A stretch of 26,532 nucleotides of DNA, taken from IMG/VR virus record IMGVR_UViG_3300041585_000117, positions 1 to 26,532 of that record; one strand, 5' to 3'. Position numbers and translations under genes: made by a program. This DNA is from a virus. Below are positions 46-10,529 of this stretch, piece after piece. Within the stretch, counting starts at the first letter, position 1; every line of letters begins with the position of its first letter. Below the pieces are notes generated by a model. The model worked only from the letters and a program-made list of their open reading frames with translations, was not told the DNA's origin and did not search any database.

Positions 46-1398
46 TTACGCGACCGCAGGCAAGATGGGTATCACGCGCTTTTTGGGGGTTTCAGGGACA
101 CCATGAACCTGCCCGAAGATGTCTTTGCGGTCCTGGCGGAAATCGCCTTCGATATAAACAGGAACATAGCCTGTCAAAAACTCAATGGCGGCAGCAAAGA
201 AAACAATGTTGTCCGAGTAGGCGTTATTGCAAGTCGTCTCCCAAAGATCGCCTTCAAGAAACATGCAAGCACCAGCGCAGATCTGAAGCACGGGGCAGGT
301 CTTGCATTCGCTTCGGTGCGACCAGTGGGTAGAGGTGTTGAGCTTCACGCTGGCAAGGTCTGCGACCGTACCAATCAAGTGGCTTTGCCCGTTTGGCGCG
401 ACGCCCTTGGAGCTGACGTTTTGGCAAGTCATTACCTGGCCTTTTAAGTCCACCGCAATGGCGTCGTTTCTGTCCATGCCGCACTTTTGACCTAGCGCGC
501 TGGAGGGCCGCTGCATTTTCAAGCTCTCTAAAAAGCCAGCGATCTTGCTGTGGCCTAAATCAAAATTTTTAGCCAGTCCACTGCGCAGTTCAGAAAACGC
601 TTGCGTGCGGTATCCCATGTGTTCGTCGGGTTTCAGGGACGCCCCCACACCGCCTTGGTCATACGCATCAACAAAGCTGCCCTCACCGATATTGACGTTT
701 TCGTCTCCCGTGAGGTCAACAAAGAATTTATTGATTGCTGCTCGGCTGGAATTCTCACGGTTAAGCATGGCGTTAAAGCTAATTCTCCCCAGCGGTGCCA
801 GCCGTTGGTACAGATCAAGAATGGCTGCTCGCACTGCAGGCTCATCCAGCGGGTCAGGGCCGCGCACATGTTGACCTGGCCCATCGTGGCTGATACCAAC
901 ACCAAACTCCAACGCCACCAACCAGTCGTTGATCTCAGGCGTAAGCAGTGAGCCGTTGGTGATAACCGAGAGCACTGCCTGCGGATATTTCACGCGGATC
1001 GCTTCGGCCAGAGGCTTTAAAGTCTTCCAATAAACGAAAGGCTCACCGCCCCAGAACTCCACTTTTTCAGGAGGCGTTGTCACCCATTCATTTAACCCCG
1101 ACAAAAACGGCTCAATGTCGTTTTTATTGGTTTCGCCTGCGCGGGGCACAAAGCGCTGAGAGCAGTATTCGCACTCGTAGTTGCAAGACAGCCCCAGAGA
1201 AATCTTTAGCAGGCGCGGCGTGACCTTGCCCGCCGGGGTGTCAACGCTTGTGGTGACTACCGCTTGGTACTTTGAACTGGTTTGAATTCCTTCCACCAGA
1301 TCCCGCCCCTGCTCATCCGTAAGCCTTGATGTGTGGGGGTCGTAATTCAAAACAATACGGTCGTCGGTACCGGGTTTGATGGCTGTAATTTTGAACAC
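46..1398 (-). CDS. Radical SAM/SPASM peptide-modifying enzyme
   Basis: A 450-residue radical SAM enzyme. Seen: the SAM-cluster motif CxxxCxxC at C72, C76 and C79, followed by the GGEP motif near 117-120. The C-terminal half has all seven SPASM cysteines in canonical spacing: C306, then x13-G-x4 to C325, then C365-x2-C368-x5-C374-x3-C378, and C390. The family generates a 5'-deoxyadenosyl radical, and SPASM members with two auxiliary [4Fe-4S] clusters usually modify peptides (thioether links, formylglycine and related chemistry). The start is GTG, inside the overlap TAGTG with the preceding oxygenase gene, with an AAGG Shine-Dalgarno about 8 nt upstream. It is the last gene of a four-gene coupled cassette after a Cys-rich Hint-domain fibre gene, so I infer that its substrate is a virion protein. 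No RiPP precursor-recognition domain is obvious in the N-terminal 64 residues. The family call is firm; the substrate is unknown. Confidence 0.93.
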   Translation of the reverse strand: MFKITAIKPGTDDRIVLNYDPHTSRLTDEQGRDLVEGIQTSSKYQAVVTTSVDTPAGKVTPRLLKISLGLSCNYECEYCSQRFVPRAGETNKNDIEPFLSGLNEWVTTPPEKVEFWGGEPFVYWKTLKPLAEAIRVKYPQAVLSVITNGSLLTPEINDWLVALEFGVGISHDGPGQHVRGPDPLDEPAVRAAILDLYQRLAPLGRISFNAMLNRENSSRAAINKFFVDLTGDENVNIGEGSFVDAYDQGGVGASLKPDEHMGYRTQAFSELRSGLAKNFDLGHSKIAGFLESLKMQRPSSALGQKCGMDRNDAIAVDLKGQVMTCQNVSSKGVAPNGQSHLIGTVADLASVKLNTSTHWSHRSECKTCPVLQICAGACMFLEGDLWETTCNNAYSDNIVFFAAAIEFLTGYVPVYIEGDFRQDRKDIFGQVHGVPETPKKRVIPILPAVA

Positions 1399-2024
1399 TA
1401 TTTGGCCTTAATAGGAGTGAAAATCTTATTCATGTCATGCCCTATGACTTTGTATTCCAAGCCAGCAATGACTCGCGCAAAAGGGCTTGGGTCGGTTTCA
1501 TGCAGCACGTAACTTGGGAAAATCACGGCCATGCCGGGGCGCACAGCAATCCGATGCAAAGGTGCCCGATACGGAAACCCACGAACCGCTGGGTCAATCA
1601 AGATCAAGTCAGCAGCAGGCTCATCTGGCGACTCGCCAGTCCGCAAGTAGATAGACACCACCACATCAGCGTCAAAGTGCGTGTGAGGAACAATCCGCCC
1701 ACCCGCCAAGTAAGAGCGGGCAAAGCCGCGCACCGCCAGTTCTCTCTGGTCGGCTGCAGGATCTTGTAAACCAGATCCAAGGAACTGCCGCACAGCTGCG
1801 GTGATTGGATCTAGCAAATAAGCGCGGTCCGCAAGCGTTAGATCGGCCAACATGTCAGGACGCGAAATCGTGCGACGTCCCGTGCGCTTGGCAAAGTCTG
1901 CGTCATGCATAGCGCGATTAACGTGATAGTCATGTGAAGCAACTGCAATGCGTTCAAGAGCTTCTGGGTCATGTGGCAAATCAATCATTGCCACCGGGGT
2001 AGAAAAAATCTGGGTGACTTGCAT
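1398..2024 (-). CDS. 2-oxoglutarate/Fe(II)-dependent oxygenase
   Basis: A 208-residue double-stranded beta-helix oxygenase resembling the roughly 200-aa putative 2OG-Fe(II) oxygenase family (TIGR02466-like). Seen: H114 and the HxD pair H116/D118, a distal H175 in a VLHETDPS context, and R184, which fits the 2-oxoglutarate-binding Arg. The segment before H175 (PGMAVIFPSYV) is the usual strand leading to the distal His. Family enzymes hydroxylate protein side chains or small molecules, using O2 and 2-oxoglutarate. The ATG lies 2 bp after the stop of the preceding gene, and the gene's own TAG shares one base with the GTG of the radical SAM gene, so the three are probably translationally coupled. 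Pairing with a SPASM enzyme behind a tail-fibre gene suggests modification of a structural protein, but this is inference. Halogenase or other oxidation chemistry cannot be excluded, although D118 favours hydroxylase over halogenase. Confidence 0.88.
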   Translation of the reverse strand: MQVTQIFSTPVAMIDLPHDPEALERIAVASHDYHVNRAMHDADFAKRTGRRTISRPDMLADLTLADRAYLLDPITAAVRQFLGSGLQDPAADQRELAVRGFARSYLAGGRIVPHTHFDADVVVSIYLRTGESPDEPAADLILIDPAVRGFPYRAPLHRIAVRPGMAVIFPSYVLHETDPSPFARVIAGLEYKVIGHDMNKIFTPIKAK

Positions 2025-2026
2025 GT

Positions 2027-2953
2027 TTAAACCACAGACACCAAAACTTCATCGCAACCGGATATATTGCGAAACCCCACCTTGACCTTGAAAGACTCAC
2101 CGCTTTGCATGCCAGCAGATGAGACACGAAACGAGGCCAAGCCGCCGACCGACTTGACGCGCCGCAGGGGAAGCACACCGCCTGTTTCTTCTAGGAAAAT
2201 CGTCTGCTCGCCGTGCGGGTAGAGCGCACCTTCCGAGTCAACTACCTGCACATCTACCACCTTACTTGTGTCTGCAGCCATAGACACACTCGGGGTCAGA
2301 ACTTTTAGAGTCGGCAGACAGTGCGACATAACGCCAACAGGCGGTGCTTCGTCTAGCTGGGTCCAGCTTTCCAAGTTAGACGAAAAGTGACATTCAGCGC
2401 TGTTGCGGACTAAAAATGAGCACTCATCAAACGCAGCGCCAGTGTGAGGAACCGCCACTAACACGGGCCACATATCGGCTGACATTGCGCGAGCAAAGCG
2501 TAAATCACGCTTGGATTGGTAGCTCTGCTCATAAACATTGAACGGCGCCAAAGGAACGCCTTTTTCGCTAAGCGCCAGTACATAAATCCCTGGACCGTCG
2601 CGTTCTGCTGAACCCAAAAAGCTATTTGTGCGTTTGAGGGTAGACACGCCAAGAAATTGAATTTTGATACCGGCCAGATCAGGAGAAAGCCATTCACCAG
2701 ACCACAGCTCATTGGCAAAGCTGTATGTAGAAGCCGGAAGACTGTCGCTACTGGTAATCAAAGCGTCCAGCAAAGCAGGAGCCTTGACATCAAAGTCAGC
2801 GGCTTCGACTTCTGCCGTCTTGAAGAACACGGCTCTCACTCGCTCTGCGCTGATGTCAATACGAATATGAATGGGGGTAAAAAACCCACGGCCCTGAGTA
2901 GCGTTTGGCACTTTGGCATCAAGCCCGCTCCAACGCAGTAGTTGTTGCTTCAT
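2027..2953 (-). CDS. Unknown protein with C-terminal Ig-like domain, tail-fibre cassette
   Basis: A 308-residue protein I do not recognise. The last 80 or so residues look like a bacterial Ig-like (Big_1-type) beta-sandwich: a V-D-V-Q-V-V-D-x-x-G strand, a G-G-V-L-P-L turn and a final V-K-V strand. The N-terminal 230 residues look soluble and globular, without a signal peptide or membrane segment. The open frame extends to a GTG at 2962 that overlaps the preceding TGA, but that GTG lies inside the Shine-Dalgarno AAGGAG (2962-2967), which is 8 nt from the ATG at 2953. I therefore choose 2953. The gene sits between the Hint-domain fibre gene and the 2OG oxygenase, all tightly packed. Plausible roles are a secondary fibre or decoration protein, or a scaffold for the modification enzymes. 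Neither role can be proved from sequence. Confidence 0.8.
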   Translation of the reverse strand: MKQQLLRWSGLDAKVPNATQGRGFFTPIHIRIDISAERVRAVFFKTAEVEAADFDVKAPALLDALITSSDSLPASTYSFANELWSGEWLSPDLAGIKIQFLGVSTLKRTNSFLGSAERDGPGIYVLALSEKGVPLAPFNVYEQSYQSKRDLRFARAMSADMWPVLVAVPHTGAAFDECSFLVRNSAECHFSSNLESWTQLDEAPPVGVMSHCLPTLKVLTPSVSMAADTSKVVDVQVVDSEGALYPHGEQTIFLEETGGVLPLRRVKSVGGLASFRVSSAGMQSGESFKVKVGFRNISGCDEVLVSVV

Positions 2954-2958
2954 GATGC

Positions 2959-4383
2959 TCACTCCTTATTTGTTTTTGACTCAACGGCAATGCCGTTGGC
3001 AAAGAAAGTTCGGTCGCCATCAAGCTCAACTGACATCAAAACTTCAGCTGCCTCACCAATCAAACGCTCGATTGATTCGACGCAGATGCGGCCGTTTTCA
3101 GTGATGAGGGTGTCGCCTACTTCGACGTTGCGCAGTAAGTTGGCGTCAATGCCAATATCGGGCGTCTCCAATCGCTTTTGAGCCAACCACAGAGCGTAGT
3201 AGTCGCGGTCTACTGCCAGCCAGCCGTCTGGACTTCTAAGCAGGTGCTCACGGGTCATGCGCAAAGTTTGATTAATCAAAACTGTTACTTCTCCAGGCTC
3301 AACTGGACAAACAATAGGCTCCAGTACTGTGGCGACGCCACCAAAAGCCGTGCGAACCTGATCCCCAGCAACCATTTCGTCAACGCGCTTTCGTGCGCCG
3401 TTAGCCATGGTTAGCATCGTGTCCAATGGAAAGCAACAAGTGCCGCAGTTACAGTTACAGTCGCAATTGACCGAGTAAGAAATCTGGTAATAGGTACGAA
3501 GTTGATGCCTCCCATCGCCTGAGTCAAAAACTTCAGTTCCCAATGTCTGCACATGGTTGCAGTTGACGTTGCCGCAATTAGTGCGAATCCCGGTATCACG
3601 GGCTGCACCTTGCGCCCCAAGCACAGTTGTTCGCAAAGCAAACTTGTCATGCAGCCAGCCGTAGTTAGCCGTCCATACTTGACCAGCGTTGTTGGCGTAC
3701 ATATCCCAGTTGCCATCGCTTTTCAGAAAACCCATCATGTTGCCGTTGACGTGCAGCGAGCGAGTCACGTTGTCCGTGTCCTGCATCGTGATGGTCGGGG
3801 CTGTGTTCTGAATCGTGAGATTCCCAGTCATCGTGTCGCCGGTCTTGGCCACGCGGCTGGACAGATCAATGTTCACCGTGGAGTTGCCACTCGCATCCGG
3901 CCCCGCACCATTGACCGATCGCACAAAGGCTGTCGAGTCATACCCGTCTAACTTGTCAGCGTCCACCGCCTTGGCCGTGATGCCCAAATATGTCGTGTTG
4001 TGGTTGTGCGCGCTTGATGCAAAGGCAGTCGCTTGCTGGCCATCAAGCAGATCGGCATCCAAGCCAGTTCCTGCGCCATCAACCGTCAGCAGCTTGGCCA
4101 AGACATCGGCAGCCGTGTAGGTGGCGGCGTTGAGCTTGGCTGCGAACTGTGTGTCTATGCCACTTACCAGGTCCATGATCAGACGCCAGCTGTCTGGGTT
4201 GGTGCTGATCAATTGGTACAGCTTTAATTGGTCGCTTCGGTAGCACAGCATTCCCACCTGTTGATTGATGGTTGGGAACGTTGTGCCGCTGTTGCATGAA
4301 ATTGCTGTCTTGTCGTTGTTCAGTATCTCGATGAGCGAATCCGAGAGCGTTCTGGACGACGGAATGTCGGTGAAGTTTTGCAT
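2959..4383 (-). CDS. Tail fibre protein with Cys-rich peptide and C-terminal Hint autoprocessing domain
   Basis: A 474-residue phage fibre protein. The N-terminal two thirds show fibre-type modules: two copies of the LDxDxLDG motif (about residues 108-121 and 141-153), a TGDTMTGNL segment near 181-189, and Gly/Asn-rich strands. A short cysteine cluster follows, C307, C309, C311, C313, C316 and C317, with C270 and C275 further upstream. From C317 a Hint (hedgehog/intein) domain begins: C-F-P at 317-319, the N-G and G-D turns (about 328 and 340), a TxxH block-B motif (T377, H380), and a terminal F-F-x-N-G strand at 460-464. Family knowledge: the first Cys undergoes N-S acyl shift and cleaves or transfers the upstream chain. 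The usual terminal His-Asn is missing and no C-extein follows, so splicing is unlikely. The ATG directly abuts the TAG of the 455-aa gene, with AGGGG about 7 nt upstream. Confidence 0.85.
   Translation of the reverse strand: MQNFTDIPSSRTLSDSLIEILNNDKTAISCNSGTTFPTINQQVGMLCYRSDQLKLYQLISTNPDSWRLIMDLVSGIDTQFAAKLNAATYTAADVLAKLLTVDGAGTGLDADLLDGQQATAFASSAHNHNTTYLGITAKAVDADKLDGYDSTAFVRSVNGAGPDASGNSTVNIDLSSRVAKTGDTMTGNLTIQNTAPTITMQDTDNVTRSLHVNGNMMGFLKSDGNWDMYANNAGQVWTANYGWLHDKFALRTTVLGAQGAARDTGIRTNCGNVNCNHVQTLGTEVFDSGDGRHQLRTYYQISYSVNCDCNCNCGTCCFPLDTMLTMANGARKRVDEMVAGDQVRTAFGGVATVLEPIVCPVEPGEVTVLINQTLRMTREHLLRSPDGWLAVDRDYYALWLAQKRLETPDIGIDANLLRNVEVGDTLITENGRICVESIERLIGEAAEVLMSVELDGDRTFFANGIAVESKTNKE
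2962..2967 (-). promoter_or_regulatory. Shine-Dalgarno AAGGAG deciding the start at 2953
   Basis: AAGGAG on the minus strand stands exactly 8 nt before the ATG at 2953. It overlaps the alternative GTG at 2962, which therefore has no ribosome site of its own. It lies just before the stop of the upstream Hint-fibre gene, as expected for coupled translation. Confidence 0.75.
2962..3435 (-). other. Hint (hedgehog/intein-type) domain, residues 317-474 of the fibre protein
   Basis: About 158 residues starting at C317. The N-terminal block reads C-F-P-L-D-T followed by a hydrophobic strand, N-G, V-D-E-M and G-D, as in bacterial Hint domains. Block B has T377-x-x-H380. The C-terminal strand ends F-A-N-G-I-A-V-E-S rather than the H-N-(C/S/T) needed for Asn cyclisation. 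I infer hedgehog-like one-ended processing: a thioester at the C316-C317 bond, then hydrolysis or attack by a nucleophile. The domain call is good; activity is unproven. Confidence 0.78.
3433..3465 (-). other. Cys-rich peptide CDCNCNCGTCC next to the Hint scissile bond
   Basis: Residues 307-317 of the fibre protein alternate Cys with Asp, Asn or Gly. The encoding DNA contains a short TGTAAC repeat. After Hint cleavage this peptide would become the C-terminus of the fibre. It is a candidate for metal binding, disulphide cross-linking or modification by the radical SAM/SPASM enzyme three genes downstream. These roles are inferred from position and composition only. Confidence 0.7.
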
Positions 4384-5751
4384 CTAGTACCCCTGTGCAA
4401 TCCAAGTGAAGGAGCCGCTCACGCGTGCGGCGAAAGTGTTTTCAAGAACGGCCGTAAAGCCGGTGGTCGTGACGGAACCTATGAGGCGTGGAATGGCCAC
4501 TGCAGTGCCGCCCTTGTGCGTCACAGTGACTTCGGGCGGGACACGAAAGCTGCGAGTAAAACCAATCACAGCGCCGAGAGCAGCATCGGTGATCTGGGCC
4601 GTGCCTCGGTCAAAGATGTCGGGGACATCCACAGTCACGCGCAAGGCGTCGATGAAGCCGCGATCAGAATTGCGTGATTTGAGGATGGCCCTAAAAAGCG
4701 CTCGGCGGTAGGTGTAGTCACCTTGGATGAAGTCACGAAAATCCGTGTACCCCGGCGGGTGCCCAGCGCTCACGATGTTGGCGAAGTCCTGCTCTGTGAT
4801 CTCGGCCGTGGAAATGATCATGTCGCTGATCACGCCATTGGCATGCCGCCGGTACTGCTCAGCCAAGAGCAAGGCTTCACTGGCGTTGATACGCAGCGCA
4901 CGCTTAAGAGCGTCCGTTACGCCAAGTCCCTCGTTGATCAATCGCCGGTAGGCCACCGTGCGTCCAATGGCCTCACCCATAGCCACGGCTTCAGCTACCC
5001 GCTTGATCGACTGTCGCGCCGCTTTATCGCTCGCTCCAAATGCTTCGGCAACCGGTTTTTGAACCTGCTTGGCACCCTGATCGCTGAGTGCTAAGTTTTC
5101 GCTGATCCGAAGCACGAATGCGATCAGGTCGGCATAGGTTTCAGCAAAGCTCAGTCCCTCGGTGATGCGCTTGGTGACCACTCGATCAAGGTCATCGCCA
5201 ACGCCAAAAGCTTCTGAGTTGGCTTTGCCAATCACTCGCCCTGAAAACTCTGCAATCGGCAGCCCCTCAGCAAGGCGCTTGATACCGCTTTGACGGAGCA
5301 CATCTGCCAGCGATAGGCCCTCGGTAGCAAGCTTGGTGACCGTGCGCGAAAGATAATCGGCTGACTGAAAGGCTTCTTGCGCGGCCTTGCGACTGGCCTT
5401 GGAGACGCCTTCGGTCATGGCCAAGCTCTCGACAAATCGCAGGACGTAGGCGATCAGGTCTGAGTAGGTTTCGGAAAATCCAAAAGTCTCCGACTCGCAC
5501 AACATGAACTGCCGTTTGAGGTTCTCTGCGACCAAGAGCGACTCATTTGATCGCTTTGTCCACTGTCGCCCCGTTGCCTCTGTGAACGCAAGCGTCACAG
5601 CAACGGCAATGCTGTAAACCGCAGGGTACGCCGTTGTCCACGACTTACCGGCACTCGCACTGGCCCAAGTAAAACTTGCGTTTGCCCAGGTGTAGCTCGC
5701 GCCCTGCAGCTCGGTGACCGTCACCGTATCAGGTGTCACCGCCTCTAGCAT
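4384..5751 (-). CDS. Tail protein with 18-residue helical repeats and lectin-like C-terminus
   Basis: A 455-residue structural protein. Residues 70-303 are a regular repeat: glutamates starting the pattern E-[AGS]-[LFV]-x-[FLVA]-[AGS]-[DE] occur at 70, 88, 108, 126, 144, 162, 180, 198, 218, 236, 254, 274 and 292, that is every 18 or 20 residues. The composition is strongly helix-forming (Ala, Glu, Leu, Arg, Lys, no Pro runs). Two units (about 89-110 and 199-220) are near copies containing the ETY-x-DLIA core. The last 75 residues (R-S-F-R-V-P-P-E-V-T-V, then T-G-F and F-T-W-I-A-Q-G-Y) look like the H-type lectin or beta-sandwich end found on phage tail-tip proteins. It lies between a small tail protein and the Hint fibre, 5 bp after the former's stop. 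The inferred role is a fibre or spike component: a helical rod carrying a binding head. Confidence 0.8.
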   Translation of the reverse strand: MLEAVTPDTVTVTELQGASYTWANASFTWASASAGKSWTTAYPAVYSIAVAVTLAFTEATGRQWTKRSNESLLVAENLKRQFMLCESETFGFSETYSDLIAYVLRFVESLAMTEGVSKASRKAAQEAFQSADYLSRTVTKLATEGLSLADVLRQSGIKRLAEGLPIAEFSGRVIGKANSEAFGVGDDLDRVVTKRITEGLSFAETYADLIAFVLRISENLALSDQGAKQVQKPVAEAFGASDKAARQSIKRVAEAVAMGEAIGRTVAYRRLINEGLGVTDALKRALRINASEALLLAEQYRRHANGVISDMIISTAEITEQDFANIVSAGHPPGYTDFRDFIQGDYTYRRALFRAILKSRNSDRGFIDALRVTVDVPDIFDRGTAQITDAALGAVIGFTRSFRVPPEVTVTHKGGTAVAIPRLIGSVTTTGFTAVLENTFAARVSGSFTWIAQGY

Positions 5752-6315: not shown

Positions 6316-9300
6316 TTAATACAGCCGCAAGCTTGTGAAACCGCCGAGCGGCGCAAACGGAGCGCTTGCAGAGCGCACCTCGCCTCCCATGCGTCCAGCA
6401 AACAAGCGCCGCTCCGTCGTGGTCTGACACACGCCAAGGCAAATACGGTCTGTGTCCGCAACGGCAAGCGGAACCATCACGCGACGAGAAAGCTGGTCTT
6501 CTAAAAAAAAGGCTCCGGTGCTTGCGTCATAGCCCACGCTCAGCGAGGTGCCTGCACCACTTTCACCACTTTCACCACTTTCACCACTCTCACCAGCTTC
6601 GCCACCCTCACCACTTGCGCTCCAGATCACGCAAGTGGTGATCTCGGTGGGTATGAACCAAAACGACGTGTGAAAGAGCGCAGGTACGTTCACGCTCCAT
6701 GCCACCCGCGTGGTGTCCTTGACCATGAGGCCATCGCCATAGCGGCCCGCCGCGTATGCCGCGCCCGCCGCTTGACTGGATACGGGATTGCCCAAACCAG
6801 CGGTCGATCCGTTGAGCCGCCAGCCGTAGATCTCTCCGGCCTGAAGCGCATCCTCCCGGGCAATTTGGAGCCTAGCGTCTACGTTGGCAATGGCACCGTC
6901 ATTGGCCCACTGGCGCTGAGCGGCCTCACTACTCCACGGAAAGTTCGAAGCCAGCCACGTCGTGCGGTCATCACTGGACGCGCCCAAGCTGCTCTGCAGC
7001 GTGTTCTGGGCCCGAATGGGGGACACCAAATCGACCTCAAAGAGGTACTCTGCCGTCTGCGCGCCCGTGGTCATGCGCAGTACGTTGCGACCATTGACAG
7101 ACGCCACAGATGCAAAGTGCTTGGTGCCCGGAAATCCCAAGGCCTGCTGATCGCGCTCCAAGATCAGGTTAGCGTTTTGCGGCTGGGCCACCACGGTGGA
7201 GACAAAGCTGGGGACGTCGCTGTAAATGCCCGGCGAGGCAGTGGCCTTGATCCAGAACGTGCGCTCCCCGTCAAAACCTGCGGGCAGTGTGTAGCTCGTC
7301 GACTTGACCTCGGCCACGAAGAGCGAAGCATCCCAAGCCGCCCCCTCGCGCAACTCATAGCCCACCACTTCAGGCTCGGGACTGGGTTGCCAGCGGAACT
7401 CCAGCCGATTCGCCGACTGCACCACATCGAACTGGCGCACGGTCGAGGGTGCCAGCAAGGTCAGCACAAAAGTGGTCACGTGGGCGCTGTAGTTTCCGGA
7501 GGTATCGATCCCTCGTATGTGATACGGGTACTGCCCTGCCGCGCTCTGGTCGTGGACCATCTGGGTCGCGGCGGTCTTGGCCACCAACTGGGCGTTGTCC
7601 CAACCAGGCCCCACCCGCACCTCGTAGCCTGACAGATCGGCGTCCAGAAGCTCATCCCACTGAAGGAGCAGGTCCGACATCCGGCGCTGAACCAAAAAGC
7701 CCGTGACGTCGGACGGCGGAAGCGTTTTCCCAAGCACCGTAGCGCTAAGGGTCGCCGGCACGCTTTCCTTGCGCGTGATGCCAATGGCCCGTAGGCTGAA
7801 CTCGTACTCGCCTTCCTGCGCGTCACGGATTTCGGCGTAGTTGGCGCTGGTCAGCGGTAGGCTCACGAAGTTGCCGCCCCTGACCCGGTACGACAGTCGA
7901 TATGCGATCGCAGCTTGCACCTCCGACCAGGACACTTGCACCAGAACCTGCGCCTGGTCCTTGACGCGGTAAAGGCTCTCTTGCACGGCAAGCCCGGTGG
8001 GTGTCGCCGGCACATCCGAAAGGACCGTGATCGATCGTGGCTGAAGCGCTATGCCCTCCTCAATCGCGGCGTACTTGCTCGGGTTATGAGCCAGGGCCGT
8101 GACTTCATACTCACCCGGATCACGCTCGGCGACAGCGACCACCCGAAAAAGTTGGGCCTCAATGATCGAGGAAGCCAACACCCAGATCGCATCCGTCTGC
8201 GGAACCAGGCTGAACGGGATCGTCACCGTCAAGGTTCGGCCTGAAATCGGTCCGAGCATTCGCTCTTCAACGGTGCCGTTGGGCAAGATCACTGAGAGCC
8301 GCCAAGGCAGGTCCGCCGGCAGGTCTTGGTCCAGCGTGACGGTGCGGGCAGTAGCCGCAGCAATCCGGCCCCCCAGTCGCATGCCGCCACGCACCGGGTC
8401 CGCCACCTTGATGACATCCCCCGGGCGCACCACGGCCCCTTCCAAACCCGTGCGAAAAGTGACAATTTCTGACTCGGACTGCTCGGAGTACAAAAGCCAC
8501 TTGCCCACGCGGTGAGCCTGGCCTCGGGAGGTGCATCCCAAAGCGATCACCTCGGCCTGCACGATGCCGTATCGAGCGATACCGGCTGCGTCCTCGACGT
8601 ACTCGACCTTTTGCCGATAGAAGTCCTGCGGATCGTTCCAGGTGACCAGCGCCACGGTGTGCCGGGCCTTGGCGGACGAGCCTTGGTAGGCGAACTCACC
8701 GTCGATCACGTTGCCAGGGGCGAATTGGTAGACCGGATCCACCGGCGCGTCCTGCGTGACCGTGATCGCCCCACCCGACCAATACACCATGCCCCGGAAA
8801 ATCGAGGCCATGTCCTGAACGACCTTGTAGGCCTGCTCACGCGTTTGCAGGTACAGGTTGCAGGTAAAGCGCGGCTCGAGCCTACCGAGTCCGTCGGGAA
8901 CGAGTTGATCGCAATACTGAGCCACCCGATACAGCGCCCACTTATCAACCTGCGCCTCAGGGATATAGCTCCCCAGCCCGTAGCGAGTGCTCGTGACCAG
9001 GTCATAGAAACACCAGGCCGGGTTATCCGTCCAGGCGATCTTGAAGGTGCCGTCCCAGACTCCGACATAGGCCCGCGTGGCCGCGTCGTAGTTCGCCGGC
9101 ACCCGCACGCGCAGCAGCTTCATGTCATAGCTGCGGCGAGGGATGGAGGAGAACTGCGAGGCATCGACCCGCAGCGCCACCAGGGCGCTGTTGGGATACC
9201 TCAGCTTGCTCTCGATGACCTCGGTGTAGGACTCCAGATAGGTCTTGTTCTGGATGGCCGATGAGGTCGAATCGGCCGTGATGCGACGCACACGGATCTC

Positions 9301-9891
9301 CCAGGGGCCACTGCCCGTCAGGCGGACGTAATAGCCGCGCTGGTACTTGGTCGTGGTCTTGCCGGAGATCGTGTCGTTGACCACCTCCACGAAGCCGCCA
9401 CCGTTGACCTGAAGGTCGATCGCGAAATTGACCGAACTGCCGTTGAGGTCACCGTTGGTGGTGTCCTGGTTGGTCAGCTGGGGCACGCTCACCTTCACCC
9501 GTACCGCATCAATGTCTGGGTCGGTCACTGAGCGGACCACCGGGTGACTCGCCTTGACCTGCACGCCCACGGCGATTTCGCTCTCGACCGAGGCAAACCC
9601 GGGCACATAGCTTTGCTGCTGGGTGCCCGGCCGCGACTCCAGCGTTACGCCCGTGAAGTTGTATGAGCCGTCCTCGTTCTCAATGGGCGTGTCATCCAGA
9701 TACACCGACTTGAGCCCGTCCGCCAAGCCCTCGATCTCGCCTTCCGAGATCAGGTCCATCACGCGGGCAAAGGCCTTCGACCGCAGGCTGTCGGGTGCCT
9801 CTTGGGCGACACGGGCACTGCCGCCTCCGCCCTTGCCACCTCCGGCGCCAATGATCAGAGCGGTCGTCAGGTCGCTTCTGAGGTCGTTCAA
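6316..9891 (-). CDS. J: Tail tip host-specificity protein J
   Basis: A 1191-residue central tail-tip protein of the lambda gpJ family, which forms the tail hub and carries the receptor-binding end. The N-terminus has the typical G-A-G-G-G-K-G-G-G-G glycine patch and the ARVMDLISEGEIEGLADG segment. A large hub region follows, then fibronectin type III-like domains over roughly the middle third (V-P-A-T-P-T-G-L start; later P-S-D-V-T-G-F and D-T-S-G-N-Y). The C-terminus is a LamG/concanavalin-like fold interrupted by an ESG tandem repeat. The longer open frame to 10173 starts with Arg-rich non-conserved sequence that overlaps gene I and is rejected. The best start is TTG at 9891: it overlaps the I stop as TTGA and is preceded by GAGGTG about 5 nt away. 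The C-terminal domain is the likely receptor contact. Confidence 0.93.
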   Translation of the reverse strand: MNDLRSDLTTALIIGAGGGKGGGGSARVAQEAPDSLRSKAFARVMDLISEGEIEGLADGLKSVYLDDTPIENEDGSYNFTGVTLESRPGTQQQSYVPGFASVESEIAVGVQVKASHPVVRSVTDPDIDAVRVKVSVPQLTNQDTTNGDLNGSSVNFAIDLQVNGGGFVEVVNDTISGKTTTKYQRGYYVRLTGSGPWEIRVRRITADSTSSAIQNKTYLESYTEVIESKLRYPNSALVALRVDASQFSSIPRRSYDMKLLRVRVPANYDAATRAYVGVWDGTFKIAWTDNPAWCFYDLVTSTRYGLGSYIPEAQVDKWALYRVAQYCDQLVPDGLGRLEPRFTCNLYLQTREQAYKVVQDMASIFRGMVYWSGGAITVTQDAPVDPVYQFAPGNVIDGEFAYQGSSAKARHTVALVTWNDPQDFYRQKVEYVEDAAGIARYGIVQAEVIALGCTSRGQAHRVGKWLLYSEQSESEIVTFRTGLEGAVVRPGDVIKVADPVRGGMRLGGRIAAATARTVTLDQDLPADLPWRLSVILPNGTVEERMLGPISGRTLTVTIPFSLVPQTDAIWVLASSIIEAQLFRVVAVAERDPGEYEVTALAHNPSKYAAIEEGIALQPRSITVLSDVPATPTGLAVQESLYRVKDQAQVLVQVSWSEVQAAIAYRLSYRVRGGNFVSLPLTSANYAEIRDAQEGEYEFSLRAIGITRKESVPATLSATVLGKTLPPSDVTGFLVQRRMSDLLLQWDELLDADLSGYEVRVGPGWDNAQLVAKTAATQMVHDQSAAGQYPYHIRGIDTSGNYSAHVTTFVLTLLAPSTVRQFDVVQSANRLEFRWQPSPEPEVVGYELREGAAWDASLFVAEVKSTSYTLPAGFDGERTFWIKATASPGIYSDVPSFVSTVVAQPQNANLILERDQQALGFPGTKHFASVASVNGRNVLRMTTGAQTAEYLFEVDLVSPIRAQNTLQSSLGASSDDRTTWLASNFPWSSEAAQRQWANDGAIANVDARLQIAREDALQAGEIYGWRLNGSTAGLGNPVSSQAAGAAYAAGRYGDGLMVKDTTRVAWSVNVPALFHTSFWFIPTEITTCVIWSASGEGGEAGESGESGESGESGAGTSLSVGYDASTGAFFLEDQLSRRVMVPLAVADTDRICLGVCQTTTERRLFAGRMGGEVRSASAPFAPLGGFTSLRLY
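6555..6614. repeat. 9-bp tandem repeat in gene J (ESG repeat)
   Basis: About six and a half copies of a 9-bp unit (plus strand tttcaccac, with variants tctcaccag, cttcgccac and cctcaccac). On the coding strand it gives E-x-G triplets, mostly E-S-G, in an exposed loop of the C-terminal domain of J. The first three full units are identical, suggesting recent slippage. Confidence 0.85.
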
Positions 9892-10529
9892 AGGGTCACC
9901 TCGTCCACGTCGATCCCCGCGCTGATCACGGCAGAACCCACGATCAAGCGGCCATAGCCCACTGGCACTGGATGCCCTTGGGCGGTGGTGTTCACCGCCC
10001 CGTTGAAGCTGTAGCTGGGCTTGTTTTCGGGCCGCTCGGATGGATCGGGCGCCTTGGGCGTGGGCGCGATCATCTGGGCAACGCCACCCAGCACCATCGA
10101 AGTACCGATCGAATACAGAGTGGTCTGCGAAAGAAACGATCCGGCAGCGGCCCAGCCCATCGGATTCCACCAAGCGACGGCGATCAATGCCACGCCCAAC
10201 AGGATTTGACCCAGGCCATTGCTGCCGGCCCCGGAGACAACAGGCGCAATGGTGATGCGCTGCTGACCGGTGGGCTCGTGCAATTGGTCGAGCGAGAGCG
10301 CGTCTCGCCCAGCCAGCACGCGATAGCCGACACCGCGCTCGCCAGATGCGACCAGTTCGCGCTCAAAGGCGGGAAAGTTGGCGCACAGCGCGCGTACCGC
10401 CTCCGCAGCCGAGCCAATGGCCAAGCGGTGCCGGCGACCGAATCGCTTGGCGAGCTCACCGAGAAGAATGACCGTGACCATATTTAAGAACGTGGGTTGT
10501 GACTTTTTGCCAGTAGCCGCCGTAGACAT
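9888..10529 (-). CDS. I: Tail assembly protein I
   Basis: Up to 213 residues, lambda gpI family, required for tail-tip assembly with J, K and L. The conserved core begins V-T-V-I-L-L-G-E-L-A-K-R-F-G-R and continues with A-E-A-V-R-A-L and the H-E-P segment. A hydrophobic Gly/Ala-rich stretch lies around residues 97-150 (GLGQILLGVALIAVAWW and a later segment). The C-terminal 50 residues are the P-V-P-V-G-Y-G-R-L-I-V-G region seen in this family. The ATG at 10529 overlaps gene K by 74 bp with only a weak GAG site. The internal ATG at 10481 (197 residues) would start exactly at the conserved core and is an equally good choice. The stop overlaps the TTG start of J. Confidence 0.88.
   Translation of the reverse strand: MSTAATGKKSQPTFLNMVTVILLGELAKRFGRRHRLAIGSAAEAVRALCANFPAFERELVASGERGVGYRVLAGRDALSLDQLHEPTGQQRITIAPVVSGAGSNGLGQILLGVALIAVAWWNPMGWAAAGSFLSQTTLYSIGTSMVLGGVAQMIAPTPKAPDPSERPENKPSYSFNGAVNTTAQGHPVPVGYGRLIVGSAVISAGIDVDEVTL

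Follow-up and report, generated by a model that had tools for sequence, protein, structure and literature searches.

A SPASM radical SAM enzyme paired with alternating-cysteine fibre tails in phages and its proposed action on the virion tip

A fibre-protein tail of alternating cysteines is almost always accompanied by the same radical S-adenosylmethionine enzyme (radical SAM, rSAM) of the SPASM type in about a hundred related phage and prophage loci, and the viruses concerned therefore probably modify their own fibre tips chemically. The system was studied from IMG/VR virus record IMGVR_UViG_3300041585_000117, analysed over 26,532 bp (the window), which is probably a fragment. Four open reading frames (ORFs) of this window, all located on the minus strand at the positions given by a first-pass annotation, encode a tail-fibre-like protein with a Cys tail and a Hint domain, an Ig-like protein, a 2-oxoglutarate (2OG)-Fe(II) oxygenase-like protein and the rSAM. 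Gene calls are simple ORFs. The annotation had described the four genes as tightly coupled, which was confirmed, neighbouring genes lying 0-2 nt apart or overlapping by 1-4 nt: the Ig-like and fibre genes overlap by 4 nt, a 2-nt gap separates the 2OG and Ig-like genes, and the rSAM and 2OG genes overlap by 1 nt. The window stops 45 bp beyond the rSAM stop codon, so that any gene further downstream is lost and the cassette may be incomplete. The features are as follows.

46..1398, minus strand: SPASM rSAM, 450 aa, putative fibre-tail maturase (phrog_1802, TIGR04085, family alignment)
229..483, minus strand: SPASM cysteines C306, C325, C365, C368, C374, C378 and C390 of the rSAM (conserved in 96-98 of 98 relatives)
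1162..1185, minus strand: CX3CX2C radical SAM cluster motif, C72/C76/C79 (invariant in 98/98 relatives)
1398..2024, minus strand: 2OG-Fe(II) oxygenase-like protein, accessory, HxH at the iron site (PF13759, phrog_81, family alignment)
2027..2962, minus strand: Ig-like partner protein, frequent accessory (family counts, AlphaFold2 fold)
2959..4383, minus strand: tail-fibre-like protein bearing the Cys tail and Hint domain (tail fibre PHROGs, identity to Hint-less fibres)
2962..3435, minus strand: Hint domain, fibre residues 317-474, with C317 and T377xxH380 (AlphaFold2, Foldseek, alignments)
3436..3468, minus strand: alternating-Cys core NCDCNCNCGTC, fibre residues 306-316, putative substrate of the rSAM (co-occurrence tested in both directions)
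6316..10173, minus strand: central tail fibre J gene, context (Pfam and PHROGs)

Two-way association of the alternating-Cys tail and the rSAM

Scans of IMG/VR and GTDB gave at least about 130 further loci of the rSAM family, the IMG/VR part being the best 80 kept. Dereplication of the rSAM proteins at 90% identity led to 110 loci, 95 of them with more than 3.5 kb of upstream sequence. A CxCxC tail was present upstream of the rSAM in 89 of these 95 loci, at the C-terminus of a same-strand ORF in 81, directly before a Hint domain in 7 and close to a C-terminus in 1. This frequency is far beyond chance: a C-terminal CxCxC was found in 93/583 genes upstream of the rSAM, compared to 2/990 for the other genes in these loci and 1/398 for genes of control loci, and the single control match (locus L149) itself adjoins another rSAM.

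The reverse search used a DNA pattern for NCNCNCNC followed by a stop codon, which is independent of the rSAM sequence and covers one form of the tail. Fifty-two IMG/VR stretches matched, 47 of them in frame at the end of an ORF and 5 out of frame. An rSAM was present on the same contig for 44 of the 47 in-frame matches: inside the stretch in 39, elsewhere on the contig in L185, L201 and L212, and for L220 and L217 on the contigs of L077 and L035. The remaining three in-frame contigs end early, 72 bp or 348 bp past the tail gene or about 455 bp past the partner gene. For the out-of-frame matches, the contigs carried no rSAM (0/5). Taken together, the forward and reverse counts indicate that, in this collection, prediction is equally strong from tail to enzyme and from enzyme to tail. 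A putative dedicated maturase is thus genetically linked to a conserved core on the precursor, as in ribosomally synthesised and post-translationally modified peptide (RiPP) systems.

The first-pass annotation had proposed that both enzymes act on the fibre or its Cys-rich segment and so give a modified virion tip. For the rSAM, action on the Cys-rich segment is strongly supported by the near one-to-one association; the 2OG gene is found in about a third of the loci only. Among the four families whose co-occurrence it had suggested counting, the rSAM and the tail form the constant pair, whereas Hint is found in 7/95, the 2OG family in 33/95 and the Ig-like family in 71/95 loci.

The tail is carried by several unrelated scaffolds

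As the annotation had described, the window fibre ends in a Cys-rich peptide and a Hint domain, with the core at residues 306-316 and the Hint fold at 317-474. Its N-terminal part matches phage tail-fibre PHROGs and shares 75-89% identity along the first 250-300 residues with Hint-less fibres, which stop at the tail. Across the loci the tail consists of 3-9 units of alternating Cys (NCNCNC...), and the residue preceding a core Cys is Asn in 391 of 521 cases (75%), Ala in 45 and Asp in 41. Upstream fibre ends in the relatives include YNFNCNCNCDCNCMG, NCNCNCDCNCTCK and NPNCRCNC. Single-linkage clustering brought 98 precursors, the majority, together in a single broad fibre group and divided the others among 10 smaller ones, with five groups of at least two members; a few singletons (e.g. 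L022 7742, L127 2249) are probably spurious frames. The tail occurs on small and large unrelated scaffolds, and in lambda-like as well as T4-like gene contexts.

Since most relatives have no Hint domain and yet their fibres end in alternating Cys, the shared feature is the tail and not the Hint domain, and the defining element, as judged from its distribution, is the NCxC tail. The annotation had taken the Hint fibre as defining and had itself counted homologous enzyme pairs found mainly away from a Hint fibre as evidence against its proposal; with Hint in only 7/95 loci, the system that it described is a minority variant. The set of Hint fibre, 2OG oxygenase and rSAM was likewise rejected as the definition, Hint and 2OG each occurring in a minority of loci.

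Small proteins of 92-173 aa, often in tandem pairs, also end in NCNCNCNC (L190:2048-2634, L197:7111-7907, L173:4373-4894). The two that were compared with PHROGs gave no match, and these proteins may be separate fibre-tip proteins.

The rSAM belongs to a new family within the SPASM maturases

The window rSAM matched phrog_1802 (E=5e-62) and the SPASM model TIGR04085 of NCBIfam (32.7 bits, above the cut-off of 27), with a PF04055 radical SAM match below the Pfam cut-off. The cluster cysteines C72, C76 and C79 of the CX3CX2C motif are invariant. All seven SPASM cysteines (CX9-15GX4C, CX2CX5CX3C, C) are present, as the annotation had reported. It had also considered the catalytic motifs of both enzymes intact; this holds for the rSAM, with all its iron-sulphur (Fe-S) cysteines, and holds only in part for the 2OG-like protein, in which HxH replaces HxD.

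Among the NCBIfam subfamily models, PapB scored first and QhpD second, both weakly. The curated ranthipeptide maturase models gave 50.5 against a cut-off of 340 (NF047865) and 48.6 against 453 (TIGR03906), and the anaerobic sulfatase maturase model TIGR03942 gave 33.3 against 349. Every score being far under its cut-off, membership in a named NCBIfam maturase family was rejected, and by these scores the rSAM represents a new family within the SPASM maturases, although its reaction may resemble that of the ranthipeptide maturases. The best profile match in the PDB was 8vpo, followed by the anaerobic sulfatase-maturating enzyme (anSME; 4k37, E 9e-12) and 5wgg, which we take to be CteB.

The motif [KR]x[IFV]P[IV] is conserved at the rSAM C-terminus (window 49-90) in 75/110 relatives and is possibly a docking site. 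In L004, another member of the rSAM family, divergent in sequence (6537-7970), directly precedes the main rSAM and follows the NCxC fibre and the Ig-like partner.

Proposed modification of the fibre tip and its alternatives

We consider it likely, from the sequence associations above, that the rSAM covalently modifies the NCxC tail, whether the product is a thioether, another SPASM product or formylglycine. In the proposed mechanism, the fibre would be a RiPP-like precursor built into the virion, with an N-terminal body that would attach to the phage tail and an alternating-Cys tail (NCDCNCNC) that would serve as the core for a dedicated SPASM rSAM. The enzyme would take the C-beta hydrogen from Asn or Asp and bond the Cys sulphur there, forming ranthionine-type thioethers. 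The stapled fibre tip might be a compact, redox-stable knot for host recognition or fibre stability, and the 2OG oxygenase-like protein could act as an optional second tailoring enzyme.

Several observations weigh against this proposal. No recognisable tail was found in 6/95 loci, namely L060, L063 (ending in LCDCD), L116, L132, L133 and L136; of these, L116, a Polynucleobacter prophage, has a broken rSAM frame and a degenerate tail (CNCDRNCGC). The co-occurrence counts are raw, the loci share ancestry and most precursors belong to one broad fibre group. General library scans, which included no model specific for the RiPP recognition element (RRE), reported no RRE or other leader-binding domain. 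Finally, with no subfamily model over its cut-off, the chemistry is not fixed by homology.

For the product itself, Cys-to-Asn/Asp thioethers at C-beta or C-gamma are our tentative choice, at somewhat less than even odds. Successive NxxC sites overlap along NCNC. C-beta thioethers are made by SPASM enzymes between Cys23 and Asn20 in NxxcA and on Asp in freyrasin, and QhpD links Cys to the C-beta of Asp, or to the C-gamma of Glu, in a protein subunit (PMC8326336). PapB accepts many different spacings, and its links can be nested (PMC9413430).

An action on the tail with another outcome, such as sactionine (C-alpha) thioethers, C-C cross-links, epimers or methylation, has perhaps one chance in four. 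Acceptors in sactipeptides are typically more hydrophobic, and the Asn/Asp-Cys alternation of the tail fits C-beta acceptors better than sactipeptide-type ones. Many maturase models are nevertheless matched about equally weakly by the rSAM family, and SPASM enzymes catalyse all of these reactions on peptides (PMC8326336).

Conversion of tail Cys into formylglycine in the manner of anSME, by which aldehydes of the tip could bond amines of the host surface, appears improbable. The solved structures closest to the rSAM include an anSME (4k37), TIGR03942 is the second-best model for L090, and the enzyme of Achromobacter phage JWF is annotated as an anSME. Substrates of anSME carry a CxPxR-type motif; this motif is absent from the tail, the strong Asn bias of the spacers would be left unexplained, and the anSME family scores are far under the cut-off. 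In its favour, anSME likewise abstracts a C-beta hydrogen (PMC8326336).

We regard as slightly less probable again a metal- or Fe-S-binding tip that the rSAM would only help to build or load. Dense alternating cysteines do look like metal ligands, but metal loading is not a known function of SPASM rSAMs and the conservation of Asn between the cysteines would not be accounted for. An auxiliary metabolic gene for heme or other cofactor metabolism, merely located beside the fibre, is very improbable: a Baltic virome survey files SPASM-type genes of uncertain function as the auxiliary metabolic gene ahbD (PMC9301287) and added rSAM cassettes were noted in pelagimyophage host-recognition islands (PMC7029224), neither implying membership in the present rSAM family, but this reading explains neither why rSAM and NCxC tail predict each other on different scaffolds and in different types of phage nor why both have decayed together in prophage L116.

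The Hint domain

The AlphaFold2 model of fibre residues 298-474 showed a Hint fold (pLDDT 82.8) with the core disordered, the Pfam Hint matches of the window fibre being below the cut-off. The best Foldseek matches of the Hint model were the bacterial intein-like (BIL) domain BIL2 6y75 (E=1e-11), the gp41-1 and DnaB inteins, the bacterial BIL 2lwy and Hedgehog 1at0. C317 and T377xxH380 coincide with the Hint catalytic positions, so that both the N-terminal Cys and the TxxH motif are present, and nine aligned homologues all share the first Cys and the block-B His. The fold, catalytic Cys and TxxH are shared with the BIL and Hedgehog autoprocessing domains; unlike these, the window Hint has no C-terminal His-Asn, the protein ending in FFANGIAVESKTNKE, and it is placed C-terminally on a fibre directly after a Cys core. 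Without the His-Asn pair that splicing calls for, only cleavage is expected.

In every tail-bearing Hint fibre the domain directly follows the core. Autoproteolysis at C317 would remove the Hint domain and leave an NCxC C-terminus; as Hint-less relatives end at the core, such N-terminal cleavage would bring back the usual type of terminus. In L229, whose Hint fibre lacks NCxC, the 16 kb stretch contains no rSAM, which makes a single but fitting control.

Accessory genes

The Ig-like protein was modelled with a pLDDT of 88.9 and a C-terminal Ig-like fold; its full-length fold was matched in uncultured Caudovirales, and the fold search for its identity gave generic Ig/BIG matches only. It may be a tip adaptor, a chaperone or a recognition partner. 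The common gene orders are fibre-Ig-rSAM (21), fibre-Ig-2OG-rSAM (15) and fibre-rSAM (8).

The 2OG-like protein matched PF13759 below the cut-off and phrog_81 weakly (9e-9). Its iron site reads H114-T-H116 in place of HxD/E, followed by H175, conserved in 27/28, and an Arg. Both HxH and HxD/HxE forms occur in the family, many relatives carrying the latter, and the motif of the window protein is therefore not fully canonical. This motif and the presence in about a third of the loci suggest an optional tailoring enzyme. The core composition did not differ with 2OG presence (Asn 75% with, 76% without).

Other candidate partners were observed. Tryptophan-halogenase-like proteins adjoin NCxC fibre cassettes (L006:6457-7998, L018:12698-14236), and in the cultured cyanophage P-SSM2 (L234, 8923-11397) a halogenase and a 2OG oxygenase adjoin genes for tail-fibre assembly; virion proteins may be substrates of phage halogenases. 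In L005 (4886-7837), the fibre and rSAM genes are separated by genes for a fatty-acid-desaturase-like protein and two unassigned proteins, and a few other loci have this set as well. The rSAM is followed in many loci, which form a large group, by a DctP-like solute-binding protein and an unassigned protein with an SGGIDST motif (PP-loop-like) (L007:9669-11702, L061:11670-12614, L090:12649-13686).

Cultured carriers and related systems

In tblastn searches against annotated phages, only Achromobacter phages JWF and 2-1 matched over most of the rSAM; Salmonella, Erwinia and Campylobacter phages were rejected as further carriers, their matches spanning the radical SAM core only. In JWF and 2-1, as in the window, an NCxC-Hint fibre, a small partner gene and the rSAM follow in the same order. 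The residues immediately preceding the Hint Cys in the two phages are NCNCDCNCNCS or NCNCDCNCS. Unlike the window, they have no 2OG gene and a different, 240-aa partner, of a type found in 9/110 loci, and their records draw no functional link. As these cultured phages and prophages carry the system, it is directly testable.

The ranthipeptide maturases (PapB/freyrasin, NxxcB/NxxcA) and QhpD resemble the phage system in that a SPASM rSAM adjoins a Cys-rich substrate, with NxxC and CX3D cores and Asn/Asp C-beta acceptors (PMC8326336, PMC9413430), and the QhpD substrate is one subunit within a larger protein complex. The proposed phage substrate differs as the C-terminus of a fibre or virion protein with Cys alternating with Asn, and the scores are far below the cut-offs. 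The anSME is similarly a SPASM rSAM of related structure acting on a Cys C-beta, whereas the window system has no CxPxR-type target and lies below the family cut-off. In the FibroRumin system (TIGR04136), an rSAM also adjoins a short peptide ending in alternating Cys, but this system is cellular, with a small precursor, another rSAM family and no phage structural protein. It was seen in a Moranbacteria contig (L149:136-1817), where an 83-aa peptide ending in ten alternating-type cysteines adjoins a FibroRumin-family rSAM (TIGR04136, above cut-off); a literature search on FibroRumin found no paper.

The literature searched, whose coverage left out most subscription papers, gave no account of a phage fibre tail linked to an rSAM. 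The proposed use of the rSAM on virion tips would add a new variant to RiPP-type modification, whose chemistry has until now been known chiefly from peptide natural products of bacteria. On balance we favour the view that a wide class of tailed phages has rSAM-modified fibre tips (poly-thioether or other), with optional oxygenase-, halogenase- or desaturase-like tailoring and, in some, self-removal of a Hint cap. If so, RiPP-type radical chemistry would extend to the receptor-binding tips of phages and widen the range of virion make-up, and genes now filed as auxiliary metabolic (SPASM rSAM, 2OG oxygenase and possibly viral halogenases) would gain a likely substrate. NCNCNC would then be a simple C-terminal tag predicting a modified protein, and the enzymes could serve as tools for stapling protein termini.

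Genomic context in the window

Downstream of the J gene on the minus strand, a Gp80-like gene and an uncharacterised ORF precede the four-gene block. The ORF at window 4384-5751, upstream of the fibre, has apparent degenerate internal repeats and a weakly H-type-lectin-like C-terminus (Pfam E 0.13).

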